A stretch of DNA of 64,000 nt from IMG/VR virus record IMGVR_UViG_3300049847_000435, positions 1 through 64,000 of that record; one strand, given 5' to 3'. Numbering within the stretch: the first letter of the stretch is position 1; the number at the start of each line of letters is the position of its first letter. Below, piece after piece: positions 9,624 through 19,026 of this stretch. Both the position numbers and the translations under genes were made by a program. Below the pieces are notes generated by a model. It saw only the letters and a list, made by a program, of their open reading frames with translations. It did not search any database and had not been told where the DNA came from. This DNA is from a virus.

Positions 9624-9852
9624 GGAGCTTTCGGAGTTAATCCTAAAATGCCTGCCAAGTGCTTGCCGTATTGACATTCGGTACGAGGACGGCGGCGTCG
9701 ATCCTTACTTATTGGACGCCGAAAGCGAGGATGTGATTTTCGTTCCAATGTACGACTCGCCACTGGAACGCAAGGTCAAGGATTGTCTCCTGGAGGCTGA
9801 CCGGTACGCTCAAGGAGAAAAATCGAAAGTCATTAAACTGAATTCAGGGTGA
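9613..9852 (+). CDS. small acidic unknown protein
   Basis: 79 residues, overlapping the SpoVS-like gene by 11 bases, so translationally coupled to it. Mixed alpha/beta composition with acidic patches (RYEDGGVDPYLLDAESEDV). I recognise no family. Its stop overlaps the GTG of the next gene. Confidence 0.65.
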   Translation: MSIEELSELILKCLPSACRIDIRYEDGGVDPYLLDAESEDVIFVPMYDSPLERKVKDCLLEADRYAQGEKSKVIKLNSG

Positions 9853-10964
9853 TTATTCTCCTGGAGGAGAACGGTAGCGTCAAAGGGGTTAGCATGGATA
9901 CATTCGGTGGTGTGCGTAGGGATCAATTTAATTTCAAACCGCCATTTCCGTGGTTTGGAGGAAAATCACGCTGTTCTAATGAAGTCTGGAAAAGGTTCGG
10001 CAACGTCCCAAACTACGTCGAACCTTTCGCCGGATCGTTGGCTGTCATGCTCAATCGACCGCATGAAGCCAAAACCGAGTCGGTCAACGATATCGACTGT
10101 TACTTGGCTAATTTTTGGCGGGCGCTCAAATGCGATCCGGATGGTCTGGCTGAGTGGGCAGACCATCCGATCAATGAAGCCGATCTCCACGCCAGACATC
10201 TGTGGCTGCTTGGCCGCGAAGAGTTTCGGCAGAAGATGAAAACCGATCCGGATTTCTTCGATGTGAAAATTGCAGGATGGTGGGTGTGGGGTATCTGCCA
10301 GTGGATCGGTAGTGGTTGGTGTGCGGAGGATTACTATTATGACGCATCCCAGAAACTTCCCCACATGGGCGACGCGGGCATGGGGGTACACCGACCATCC
10401 CAGCAACTGCCGCACATGGGCGACGCGGGCATGGGGGTACACCGACCATCCCAGCAACTGCCGCACATGGGTAACGCGGGCATGGGGGTACACCGACCAT
10501 CCCAGAAACTTCCCCACATGGGTAACGCGGGCATGGGGGTACATGACTATCTGCAATCGCTATCGGATCGCCTTCGTCGTGTTCGGGTCGCTTGTGGCGA
10601 TTGGTCTAGAGTGCTAGGTGATAGCGTAACGATCAAGCATGGGATTACAGGGGTGTTTCTCGATCCTCCATATTCGCACGATATCCGAGACGACGACCTG
10701 TACGCTTGCGATCACGATGTCGCTGTCGATGTGCGAAAGTGGGCAATTGAAAATGGCGACAATCCAGCGCTCAGGATTGCACTATGCGGCTACGTTGGCG
10801 AACATGATATGCCGGGTTGGTCGGCGTATCAATGGAAAGCAGCGGGCGGATACGGATCGCAAGGCGATGGGGAAGGCAGGGAAAACGCCAACAAGGAATG
10901 TATCTGGTTTTCGCCGCATTGCATCAGGGACGACGGCTGGAAACCGATGTCCCTCTTTGATTAA
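9849..10964 (+). CDS. D12-class adenine-N6 DNA methyltransferase (Dam-like) with internal tandem repeats
   Basis: Motif I PFPWFGGKS near residue 32 and NYVEPFAGSLAVML near 55 form the AdoMet pocket of D12/Dam-type enzymes; the catalytic DPPY motif is GVFLDPPYSHDIRDDD near 275. Between them lie four 17-residue repeats. The start is either GTG 9849, overlapping the previous stop, or ATG 9894, which has AAGGGG upstream and gives a more usual N-terminus. It should methylate adenine in phage DNA. No restriction partner is nearby. Confidence 0.82.
   Translation: MIILLEENGSVKGVSMDTFGGVRRDQFNFKPPFPWFGGKSRCSNEVWKRFGNVPNYVEPFAGSLAVMLNRPHEAKTESVNDIDCYLANFWRALKCDPDGLAEWADHPINEADLHARHLWLLGREEFRQKMKTDPDFFDVKIAGWWVWGICQWIGSGWCAEDYYYDASQKLPHMGDAGMGVHRPSQQLPHMGDAGMGVHRPSQQLPHMGNAGMGVHRPSQKLPHMGNAGMGVHDYLQSLSDRLRRVRVACGDWSRVLGDSVTIKHGITGVFLDPPYSHDIRDDDLYACDHDVAVDVRKWAIENGDNPALRIALCGYVGEHDMPGWSAYQWKAAGGYGSQGDGEGRENANKECIWFSPHCIRDDGWKPMSLFD
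10350..10541 (+). repeat. four 51-bp in-frame tandem repeats inside the Dam-like gene
   Basis: Units start at 10350, 10401, 10452 and 10503 (last one partial). Each encodes a form of QKLPHMGDAGMGVHRPS. Units 1 and 4 share AAACTTCC, units 2 and 3 CAACTGCC; units 1-2 have GGCGAC where 3-4 have GGTAAC. The pattern suggests unit shuffling by recombination. The repeat lies between motif I and DPPY, where target-recognition parts usually sit. Confidence 0.9.
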
Positions 10965-16283: not shown

Positions 16284-17459
16284 ATGCAATTTTCCATACT
16301 TCAACCAGCACTAAGGCAGGCGCTCACCCTCGCAGGTTCGCATTTAGGCAAAAGTGGCGTCTTCGGCATGGTCGCAATTGAGGCAATCGGTAACGAGTTG
16401 CGCGTGTCCGCGCGTAATCTAGATTCGGGCATCAACTGCTTCATGCCCGCCATTGTCACGCGTGCTGGTGGCATTCTCCTGCCAGAGAAACTACTCGCCG
16501 ATCTCGTCGGTAACTTTTCGCCCGAACGGGTAGATTTTGACCTCGATCCTAAAACGAGCCGCGTGAAAATTTCTTGCCAGCGTTCGGTGGCGACAATCCC
16601 CGGCGTGCCTTTGAAGGAGATGCCGGGGATAAGATCGCTTTACGCGGCAAATAAAGATTTTGCGGTTAGTGTCCCCGAACCCGATGCGCATCTTGCGTTC
16701 TTCGGGTTAGAGTCGCTTCGTATCGCAATTGAGTCCACAACGTTCGCCGCGTCGGATGACGATTCTCGCCCGACGCTCACCGGTATCGATTTGAGTTTGA
16801 GTGGAATCGCCGCTAAATTCGCCGCAACGGACGGGTATCGGCTATCCGTTGCCCAATCCGAATTAGAAGCGGAGTTTGGCGAAATGGTAAAAATGGTCAT
16901 TCCATCCAGCCGATTAGACCGACTGGTAAAGGTACTGGCGTTGGGAGATCGGGACAGCAGGGTGGACATGCTCTTCACTCGTAACTGGGCACTCTTTACC
17001 GTTCCTTGTAGCGGTAAATCGTCAATCTCTACGATTGAGATCGAGACGGCATTAATCGACGCTAAATTCCCGGATTACAACGGTATTATCCCGAAGAGTA
17101 GAACGAACGCCATCCGCGTCGAGCGAGACGAGTTAAAGAAGGCTTTGCGCGTGACCGGTCTCTATGCCCGCGACAACGCCAATATTGTGCGGTTCGTGCT
17201 CAACGATGGCGTTTTGAAGGTGACGGCAGAGTCAAGCGAGACAGGCAACTGCTCGGTTGAGGTTAACTTGATTGAGTGCGAGAGTCGAGAACCTTTGATG
17301 ATTGCATTTAATTACAAGTTTCTTGCCGACTACCTCGACCGCGCCGAGCCTGATCTTTGGATGGAATTTACGACATCCATGAAACCAGTGAAGATATCGT
17401 CGGTGGCGAGTAGGGATGGGAATGATTTTTACGTGTTGATGCCGATGCAGCCGAAATGA
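16284..17459 (+). CDS. dnaN: DNA polymerase III beta sliding clamp
   Basis: 391 residues, close to the usual 365-380 for DnaN. Three repeated clamp domains are visible; typical pieces are LRIAIESTTFAASDDDSRP, FAATDGYRLSV, VERDELKKALRVTGLYA and the C-terminal YVLMPMQP. It should form the ring that tethers the replicase to DNA. Phage-coded clamps of the bacterial type are uncommon but known. It heads the rightward early block after promoter copy 2 and is followed 16 bases later by the C5 methyltransferase. Confidence 0.9.
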   Translation: MQFSILQPALRQALTLAGSHLGKSGVFGMVAIEAIGNELRVSARNLDSGINCFMPAIVTRAGGILLPEKLLADLVGNFSPERVDFDLDPKTSRVKISCQRSVATIPGVPLKEMPGIRSLYAANKDFAVSVPEPDAHLAFFGLESLRIAIESTTFAASDDDSRPTLTGIDLSLSGIAAKFAATDGYRLSVAQSELEAEFGEMVKMVIPSSRLDRLVKVLALGDRDSRVDMLFTRNWALFTVPCSGKSSISTIEIETALIDAKFPDYNGIIPKSRTNAIRVERDELKKALRVTGLYARDNANIVRFVLNDGVLKVTAESSETGNCSVEVNLIECESREPLMIAFNYKFLADYLDRAEPDLWMEFTTSMKPVKISSVASRDGNDFYVLMPMQPK

Positions 17460-17475: not shown

Positions 17476-19026
17476 ATGAAAAAGAAGATTAAATTTATAT
17501 CCCTATTCGCTGGCATTGGTGGTTTCGATCTCGCTTTCGAGCGTTCTGGCATGGAGTGTGCTGCCCAGGTTGAGATTGACAAGGATGCTCGGTTGCTATT
17601 AGGTCGCCGCTTTCCAAATGTTCAGCGGTTTGAGGACGTGAGGACGGTTGGGTCGCATAATCTGCCCGGCGATGTTGATGCCGTTTGTGGTGGCTTCCCA
17701 TGTCAAGGGCTTTCGATAGCCGGAAAACGCATGGGGTTAGCAGATAATCGGTCTGGTTTGTTTTGGGAAATGCTAAGGATAATTTATGAACTTCGTCCAA
17801 GAATTGTTGTGTTCGAGAATGTTCCCGGACTACTATCAACCTGCTCCTGTGCAAGCTGTGGACGTATTTGCGCAGCTTGCGGAAATACAGCCGGGGCAGA
17901 TGATGAATCGTGCGACGTTTGCGGAGGTTCTAAGTTCCGTGGACGAGTTTTACCAAGCCATCGCGGGGCAGACATGTACGCGGTCGTTTCCTCGCTTGGG
18001 CGGATCGGGTTTGATGGTTCGTGGCGCATACTGGACGCTCGGTATTTCGGAGTACCCCAACGAAGACGACGGATTTTTGGAGTCTTCGTTAATCGAGATT
18101 TTGGAGACATTCGAGGACTGGTCGGAGCGCCATGCGCTGATGAGCTATTCGGACCGGGTGAGCTATATTCAGGATTATTACTTGAGTCCGAAGGCCTGCG
18201 CCGGGATTCTGCGCCGGGCGCAGGTAATGGGAAAGGAGATCAAGGGGCAGTTGAAGGACGCTCTGGAGTCGGTGGCGAGTCAGTTGCGGGAACATGGATC
18301 GTAGGATCGTGCAATACGGATGAGAATAGCGCATGGGGCAATCATCTTACCGCCGACACATCGACCGCCAATTACGCAAACAATGGCGGTCGATCCGGTG
18401 GTAACGATTCTGCGCCGGTGCGAAATGTGGTCATGGATCGACCGCTTGCACTTGATGGAAGAAATCTCGATACGCACGAAATTTCACCGACTCTACAATC
18501 AAAGCAGGCTGGGGGCTATTCGCTCAACTATACGCCGATGGTCATGGATCGCCAGCTTGCCGCGCCACTCGTGGCGCGGCAAGCAAAGGGAGCGTTTACC
18601 GATCCGGTCAATGACAATATCATCGCCTTCTCGTCAAAAGACAGTGGGGGCGATGCTGCCGAAGATATAGCCCCAACGCTGAGGGCGCAGAATTTTGACA
18701 AGAGCCATATTAATGGCGGCGGGCAGATTGCGATCTGTCATGGATTCCAATCAAGTCAGTCGGGCGTGCGTACATCAGATGTCCATGCTACGCTCGACTC
18801 AAATAACGGTAGCCGACGCCATAATGGTGTGTTTTCCTCAGAACTCCACCATGCTCGCCGCCTCACCCCAACCGAGTGCGAGCGGCTTCAGGGGTTTCCC
18901 GATGGCTGGACGGCTGGGCAAAGCGACAGTGTTCGTTATCGGCAGCTTGGAAATGCGGTAGCCGTGCCGGTTGCCGAATGGATAGGCAGAAGAGTAGCTG
19001 CATATCTATCATCGGAGGCGTTGTGA
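17476..19026 (+). CDS. DNA (cytosine-5) methyltransferase
   Basis: 516 residues with all main C5 motifs in order: I SLFAGIGGFDLAFERSG, IV GGFPCQGLSIAG (catalytic Cys), VI ENVPGLL, VIII GVPQRRRRIFGVF, then a long variable target-recognition region, IX RRLTPTECERLQGFPDGWT and X QLGNAVAVPVAEWIG. A cysteine-rich insert (CSCASCGRICAACG) follows motif VI and may bind zinc. The segment 17786-18304 is also open and protein-like in the +1 frame. No restriction enzyme is adjacent; self-protection or regulation is likely. Confidence 0.92.
   Translation: MKKKIKFISLFAGIGGFDLAFERSGMECAAQVEIDKDARLLLGRRFPNVQRFEDVRTVGSHNLPGDVDAVCGGFPCQGLSIAGKRMGLADNRSGLFWEMLRIIYELRPRIVVFENVPGLLSTCSCASCGRICAACGNTAGADDESCDVCGGSKFRGRVLPSHRGADMYAVVSSLGRIGFDGSWRILDARYFGVPQRRRRIFGVFVNRDFGDIRGLVGAPCADELFGPGELYSGLLLESEGLRRDSAPGAGNGKGDQGAVEGRSGVGGESVAGTWIVGSCNTDENSAWGNHLTADTSTANYANNGGRSGGNDSAPVRNVVMDRPLALDGRNLDTHEISPTLQSKQAGGYSLNYTPMVMDRQLAAPLVARQAKGAFTDPVNDNIIAFSSKDSGGDAAEDIAPTLRAQNFDKSHINGGGQIAICHGFQSSQSGVRTSDVHATLDSNNGSRRHNGVFSSELHHARRLTPTECERLQGFPDGWTAGQSDSVRYRQLGNAVAVPVAEWIGRRVAAYLSSEAL
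17786..18304 (+). CDS. overprinted protein inside the C5 methyltransferase gene
   Basis: 172 residues in the +1 frame relative to the methyltransferase, ATG at 17786 with AAGGA about seven bases upstream. Two parts look like sequences I recall from separate phage proteins near methyltransferases: YWTLGISEYPN (residues ~82-92) and YLSPKACAGILRRA (~132-145), followed by KGQLKDALESVASQL. The first is the shifted reading of the motif VIII region of the methyltransferase. Both frames thus look conserved, which suggests true dual coding. Function unknown. Confidence 0.5.
   Translation: MNFVQELLCSRMFPDYYQPAPVQAVDVFAQLAEIQPGQMMNRATFAEVLSSVDEFYQAIAGQTCTRSFPRLGGSGLMVRGAYWTLGISEYPNEDDGFLESSLIEILETFEDWSERHALMSYSDRVSYIQDYYLSPKACAGILRRAQVMGKEIKGQLKDALESVASQLREHGS

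Follow-up and report, generated by a model that had tools for sequence, protein, structure and literature searches.

A conserved gene nested in the +1 frame of a phage C5 methyltransferase clade, with a possible role as a clamp-tethered accessory subunit

The window analysed here, a 64-kb stretch of an 86-kb virus record, carries a gene for a C5 cytosine DNA methyltransferase (MTase) with a long open reading frame (ORF) overprinted in its +1 frame. This locus raises the question of whether both frames are used, and, if they are, what the second protein might contribute to the MTase. The original prediction described a +1 ORF of 172 codons with its own ATG and ribosome-binding site, and our ORF list indeed contains this ORF, with TAAGGA located six nucleotides ahead of the ATG. 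The relevant features are as follows.

16284-17459, + strand: phage DNA polymerase III beta subunit, the sliding clamp (PF02768, E 6.6e-18; PF02767, E 5.3e-17; phrog_947, E 3.5e-43).
17476-19026, + strand: intact orphan-type C5 cytosine DNA MTase of 516 amino acids, frame 0 (PF00145, E 1.9e-63; phrog_116, E 2.7e-85), laid out as motifs I-VIII, a long spacer, and motifs IX-X.
17774-17779, + strand: Shine-Dalgarno (SD)-like TAAGGA, 6 nt 5' of the +1 ATG.
17786-18304, + strand: predicted overlapping +1 gene inside the MTase gene, 172 codons plus stop, with an ATG start (ORF list, tblastn and profile score).
17786-17824, + strand: N-terminus of the +1 product, MNFVQELLCSRMF, where relatives carry a clamp-binding-like QL[TSD][LMF]F that is at best degenerate in the window.
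17825-18082, + strand: linker of the +1 product, under little +1 constraint, overlapping MTase motif IV to motif VIII; pLDDT mostly <60.
18052-18078, + strand: MTase motif VIII, VPQRRRRIF, frame 0; its +1 reading is a conserved YPNEDDGF-type segment, and both frames are constrained.
18083-18280, + strand: conserved core of the +1 product, SSLIEILE ... YYLSPKACAGILRRA ... ALESVA, including an insertion of about 16 codons specific to the window.
18109-18810, + strand: frame-0 spacer from motif VIII to motif IX, with no confident fold and no recognisable target-recognition domain.
18853-18969, + strand: MTase motifs IX and X, RRLTPTECERLQGFPD ... GNAVAVP, frame 0; pLDDT >90; the phrog_116 match covers the gene.

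The sliding-clamp gene adjoins the MTase gene on its upstream side. Between motifs IV and VIII, the MTase of the window carries a cysteine-rich, zinc-ribbon-like insertion (17842-17943, CSCASCGRICAACGNTAGADDESCDVCGGSKFRG) through which the +1 ORF reads. Elsewhere in the window, an ORF at 9849-10964 has a Dam-like sequence (FPWFGGKSR, DPPYS) and four tandem repeats of LPHMG[DN]AGMGVH, and its C-terminal end, KPMSLFD, is reminiscent of a clamp-binding tail.

The length of the +1 ORF taken by itself is only suggestive, because synonymous recoding of the MTase with the codon usage of the window produces a +1 run of at least 173 stop-free codons somewhere in the gene in 6.2% of recodings (P ~0.06) and leaves the same 172 codons open in 1.5%. 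When scored against a profile of its relatives that was built without the window sequence, the window core reaches 58.4 bits, whereas the recoded copies that HMMER reported reach 16.3 bits at most. Protein searches with the +1 frame, which had been proposed along with the original prediction, return strong matches. By tblastn, the +1 product of the window matches 130 phage records (best E 9e-9), and the +1 product of a typical relative matches 166. The 40 matches listed all lie under methyltransferase or hypothetical genes or in unannotated records. All six matches examined fall in frame +1 of a MTase coding sequence, and two more MTase loci carry the same +1 core.

Scans confirm at least 548 relatives in IMG/VR and at least 532 in GTDB, and the genome records among them include Pseudomonadota, Acidobacteriota, Planctomycetota, an actinomycete, Verrucomicrobia and Bacillota. 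The common core reads SLSDILETGxVPQRYYLSPKACAGILRRAEKRGKELPxxLxxALExVA, with a stop shortly after. It overlaps the MTase in all loci read, and no core was seen outside a MTase gene in these samples, which derive from searches seeded on overlapped forms. Likewise, the MTase frame is present in 78 of 80 loci of the set resembling Streptococcus phage MM1.

Since the first loci were picked by their +1 core, a second sample was picked by the MTase protein alone. The core is found in 79 of these 80 loci; a script placed 75 of the 79, all in frame +1, and missed motif VIII in the other four. The single exception (L150) has a degenerate copy of the core. By comparison, a PF00145 search of 15 genomes also gave loci for C5 MTases of other clades from the same genomes; these lack the core in every frame, and in most of them stops near motif VIII break the +1 frame. 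Thus, the +1 companion is tied to one MTase clade and not to all C5 MTases. Among the matches listed, the +1 ORF goes unannotated in nearly every record from the large clade. The suggestion of a common but overlooked companion therefore holds for how common and how rarely annotated the ORF is in this clade, but not for its having been overlooked altogether, since orf14 of phage MM1 and the family phrog_16143 already record it.

The pattern of nucleotide variation indicates which frame is constrained at each place. In an alignment of 76 loci, variation lies at the wobble position of the MTase codons as far as motif VIII and at that of the +1 codons thereafter, and past motif VIII the mean amino-acid entropy is 1.36 bits in the +1 frame versus 2.13 bits in the MTase frame. 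The per-frame measure of synonymous constraint that had been suggested for this locus was made on 77 distinct loci. In the MTase frame, the observed/expected ratio for synonymous changes stands at 0.96-1.01 between 158 and 99 codons upstream of motif VIII, drops to about 0.8 in the last 60 codons ahead of that motif and to 0.62 around the motif itself, reaches 0.18-0.40 within the core and returns to 1.0 past the +1 stop. Strong suppression (0.18-0.62) is confined to the stretch from motif VIII through the core, inside the overlap. MTase codons at fixed places (GGA, GTT, GTC and TTT) are nearly frozen across phages. The +1 linker is stop-free in relatives, with weak synonymous constraint (~0.8).

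Stops tell a similar story. Frequent +1 stops in homologous MTases would be at odds with dual coding; in clade homologues their frequency per codon is no higher than 0.1% between 40 codons upstream and about 50 codons downstream of motif VIII. The +1 frame is open as far as its stop in 100% of loci versus 28% of synonymous recodings, and open for at least 74 codons upstream in 90% versus 11%. In the reverse test, wherein the +1 protein is recoded synonymously, frame 0 is open through the overlap in 76 of 76 loci versus 9.6 expected; these recoding nulls use codon usage estimated per locus, and because the loci share ancestry, the counts are not independent trials.

Two places had originally been singled out as having a conserved reading in the main frame, namely motif VIII and a familiar-looking downstream segment (ESEGLRRDSAPG). 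Motif VIII is constrained in both frames, but ESEGLRRDSAPG looks familiar because it is mostly a shadow of the conserved +1 protein. In the KACAGILRRA part of the core, changes that are synonymous in the +1 frame are nearly free (~0.9 of expectation) and changes that are synonymous in the main frame are almost absent. Thus, frame 0 is read through at this place and yet is hardly constrained in sequence.

A by-product reading, in which the +1 similarity mirrors MTase conservation and shared codon habits and the +1 frame is not translated, could draw on the strong conservation of motif VIII where it overlaps part of the +1 segment and on the unremarkable length of the window ORF (P 0.06), but is scarcely credible given that, downstream of motif VIII, conservation is stronger for the +1 amino acids than for those of the MTase and MTase-synonymous changes are suppressed, that recoding abolishes the +1 core score (58 versus at most 16 bits), and that the +1 starts, SDs and N-terminal motif described below occur many-fold above recoded expectation. 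From these sequence comparisons, it is nearly certain that both frames are under selection and that the +1 ORF is a genuine gene housed within a widespread clade of phage C5 MTases. With a conserved core, suppressed MTase-synonymous change across the overlap and frame 0 open in every aligned locus, the two readings appear to form the true dual-coding pair that the original prediction envisaged.

The manner in which the +1 product is made can be judged from its upstream region. In 25% of loci, versus 1.7% expected from synonymous recoding, a +1 start is preceded by an SD that matches over 6 nt or more. These SD-start pairs include TAAGGA-6-ATG in the window, GAGGTG-8-ATG in one locus group, TAAGGAG-7-ATG or TAAGGAG-7-TTG in others, and AAGGAG followed by ATG in the MM1 group. 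A fixed +1 start at the 'LDAQ' ATG was considered and rejected, as this codon is ATG in only 23 of 76 loci and ACG in 53.

Directly after the start, many +1 products carry QLTLF, QLTFW, QLSMF, QLDLF, QMELF or QMTLF. The bacterial sliding-clamp-binding consensus is QL[S/D]LF, with QLNLF in UmuC and QLGLF in Pol II (PMC3716654). A relaxed form of the motif, Q[LMIFV][STDEANG][LMIF][FLWI], was picked after viewing the first sample, in which it occurs in 40 of 77 products versus 0.6 expected; the second and third samples serve as independent tests, with 16 of 43 versus 0.4 and 19 of 39 versus 0.1. A start codon is located no more than 14 codons upstream of the motif in all 40 cases of the first set and in 13 of 16 cases of the second. 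Its distance ahead of motif VIII ranges from 53 to 131 codons, so that it coincides with different parts of the MTase and has probably arisen more than once.

In a set of 24 distinct MM1-type alleles sharing one length, Q[MT][TNS]LF is retained by 22 and has been lost from the other two, and most of the +1 linker changes freely among close alleles of this type. The N-terminus of the window product, MNFVQELLCSRMF (MNFVQELLC), and that of phage P1, MQLTTNGL, are poor matches to the clamp motif. Because of these two poor matches and the MM1-type losses, a tether cannot be universal. Another locus (L007) also has an annotated clamp gene, and we considered whether a clamp gene is a conserved neighbour of the MTase; this idea was rejected, as phmmer with the clamp of the window found none in the loci then collected. 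Our literature search found no paper joining DNA methyltransferase to the DnaN/beta clamp and clamp-binding.

The sharp change in the dominant constrained frame at motif VIII would also fit a programmed frameshift, in which ribosomes slip to +1 near this motif and produce a truncated MTase with an alternative C-terminal tail. However, the +1 frame remains free of stops, and under weak constraint, far ahead of motif VIII, the +1 starts, SDs and N-terminal motif located 53-131 codons upstream would be bypassed by a slip at that point, and no fixed slippery sequence is evident in the aligned codons at motif VIII. We consider a frameshift very improbable, and these upstream features favour internal initiation. 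The +1 product would then be made through independent internal initiation within the MTase message.

Structure predictions suggest where the two proteins are ordered. In the AlphaFold model of the +1 product from the window, confidence is high only across approximately residues 131-170, where helices at residues 135-148 and 154-170 form a helical hairpin (pLDDT >90). Foldseek with this product found no significant relative in PDB or BFVD, and a PDB sequence search with the +1 family profile found no relative. The sole match of a phmmer search with the +1 core of one relative, a tRNA synthetase, was set aside as spurious. The product also has no Pfam or NCBIfam match, hence no HNH domain and no PF00145 match is seen in it. 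In the model of the frame-0 MTase, motifs I-VIII and IX-X fold well, but residues 212-445 have pLDDT mostly <50, leaving no fold where the target-recognition domain is expected. The alignments behind the two models are shallow (56 and 40 sequences), and because of their modest depth the absent frame-0 fold is an indication and not proof.

A likeness between the +1 core and the start of the Dcm target-recognition domain was tried and rejected, as it is apparent to the eye alone, with HMMER E values of 0.04-0.19 against one sequence. Comparison of the core with Dcm-type segments by hhalign gives a probability of 5.6% and a score of 18.9, versus 17.0 for the best of 60 shuffles.

One view of function is that the +1 protein acts alone on the host clamp, restriction enzymes or replication, and that the MTase gene is merely its carrier. 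Phage inhibitors of the bacterial clamp exist, and a clamp-type motif is present in about half of the relatives. However, 79 of 80 clade MTases keep the core and none was seen outside a MTase gene in the samples read, whereas a lone copy would be expected, with the proviso that the searches started from overlapped forms. This view seems unlikely to us.

We give more credence, while still considering it rather doubtful, to a trans-acting target-recognition subunit with no clamp role, which would be a piece of the small domain split off as its own protein, comparable to the beta chain of a two-chain C5 MTase. Consistent with this, no fold is predicted for the frame-0 stretch that separates motifs VIII and IX, the MM1 deposit names the ORF a beta subunit, two-chain C5 MTases exist (PMC3404938), and the core 'LSDILE..VDERYFLS' resembles the in-frame start of Dcm-type recognition domains. 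However, the Dcm-type profile comparison is not significant (hhalign 5.6%), and the N-terminal motif is left unexplained.

The explanation that we favour overall, with modest confidence, is a nested gene that codes for an accessory subunit, with a clamp tether where the motif is present. Judging from the sequences, the +1 product is probably an accessory ('beta') subunit of the MTase. For lineages that carry the motif, the case for a putative clamp tether is evenly balanced. The full chain of subunit plus clamp tether is unlikely to act in the phage of the window, because its own clamp motif is weak. Indeed, the clamp step is doubtful here, with MNFVQELLCSRMF such a poor match, though the phage encodes its own clamp next door.

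In the favoured mechanism, the C-terminal helical core would dock on the MTase or on DNA and might stand in for the target-recognition domain that is seemingly missing from frame 0. The N-terminal QLxLF-type peptide, where present, would hold the complex to the replicative sliding clamp, such that new phage DNA might be methylated while it is copied and thereby escape restriction. We tentatively put forward, as something short of an even chance, that phage cytosine methylation is coupled to replication in this way, with the +1 subunit giving target engagement and riding on the host or phage clamp through its N-terminal peptide. If the clamp motif works, phage DNA protection would be tied directly to the replication fork, which is testable in E. 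coli. Regardless of the tether, a conserved gene appears to be nested in the MTases of hundreds of phages, P1 included, and is missing from nearly all annotations seen. Studies of such MTases, among them those of P1 dmt, may therefore have deleted or expressed two proteins together.

The closest annotated precedent is Streptococcus phage MM1 1998 (DQ113772), in which orf13 and orf14 are annotated as the alpha and beta subunits of a C5 methyltransferase. The +1 ORF corresponds to orf14 (MTSQQYQMTLFEE...), which is nested in frame +1 of the MTase at the same position, is preceded by AAGGAG, and carries an N-terminal QMTLF and a C-terminal SLSDILE..YFLS. The window and the large clade differ from MM1 by a longer core, PKACAGILRRAEKRGKELP. 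Profile matches to phrog_16143 run from MM1 beta (5e-82) to weaker large-clade relatives (L079, 1e-10; L187, 4e-7; L043, 6e-4), and the window +1 product has no match to this family.

Phage P1 dmt (NC_005856) has the same core in frame +1 of its C5 part, as a 157-codon ORF at 2231-2704 of our locus L171, which corresponds to 66728-67201 by arithmetic from the locus start. P1 differs in that Dmt is fused to an adenine methyltransferase and in its degenerate N-terminal motif (MQLTTNGL). A place covering at least 80% of the P1 157-codon ORF is kept in 519 plasmid records, and the +1 ORF is intact in 8 of the 8 P1-like alleles read. Our literature search found no paper on the P1 dmt overlap. Among the P1-like plasmids L387, L389, L391 and L393, several have a single 3042-nt coding sequence that spans dmt into the place of rdgC in other records; other P1-like records have separate overlapping genes at the dmt/rdgC place. 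Among both the MM1-type loci (L306-L369) and the P1-like alleles (L386-L393), there are sequences with nearly the same upstream part that diverge sharply past the SLSDILE or CAGILRR segment, as though the recognition region downstream were swapped as a module along with the +1 tail.

Among two-chain enzymes, EcoHK31I has its beta gene nested in the alpha gene in another frame. M.AquI and M.EcoHK31I are active two-polypeptide C5 methyltransferases, and the small chain of EcoHK31I bears motif IX (PMC3404938). In our loci, by contrast, motif IX (RRLTPTECERLQGFP) is in frame 0 and not in the +1 chain, and the +1 pair is therefore not classed as EcoHK31I-type; the EcoHK31I beta chain was compared by description.

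An out-of-frame ORF within a phage methylase gene is also known from ShiLan-type systems, in which the hidden ORF is a homing-endonuclease (HNH) insertion (PMC11855218). This identity was considered for the +1 core and rejected, as the core is not HNH and is found in nearly the whole clade. Two loci (L148 from 2954 and L152 from 2945) have an insertion of about 710 nt between MTase motif VIII and the +1 core that leaves the MTase frame open. Its frame +2 codes for an HNH-like homing endonuclease (GRNPASI ... HHINLKKSDNRPSNL) that resembles the ShiLan type; all three forward frames are thus used in one gene, and the +1 core survives downstream. In Mycobacterium phage NihilNomen (L001), the MTase is annotated as two genes (123 and 124), where frame 0 ends soon past the +1 core and is followed by another coding sequence annotated as methyltransferase. 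Phage Constella has an HNH gene between two MTase halves.

DNMT1 is tethered to PCNA via an N-terminal peptide. The likeness to our loci is one of working, as in both cases a short peptide would hold a methyltransferase to a replication clamp; the difference is that the peptide here would be on a separate chain, encoded by an overlapping gene. If the proposal is true, bacterial viruses would have in the +1 protein their own counterpart of DNMT1 on PCNA, one that accompanies a large fraction of phage orphan C5 methyltransferases and is mostly missing from annotation.
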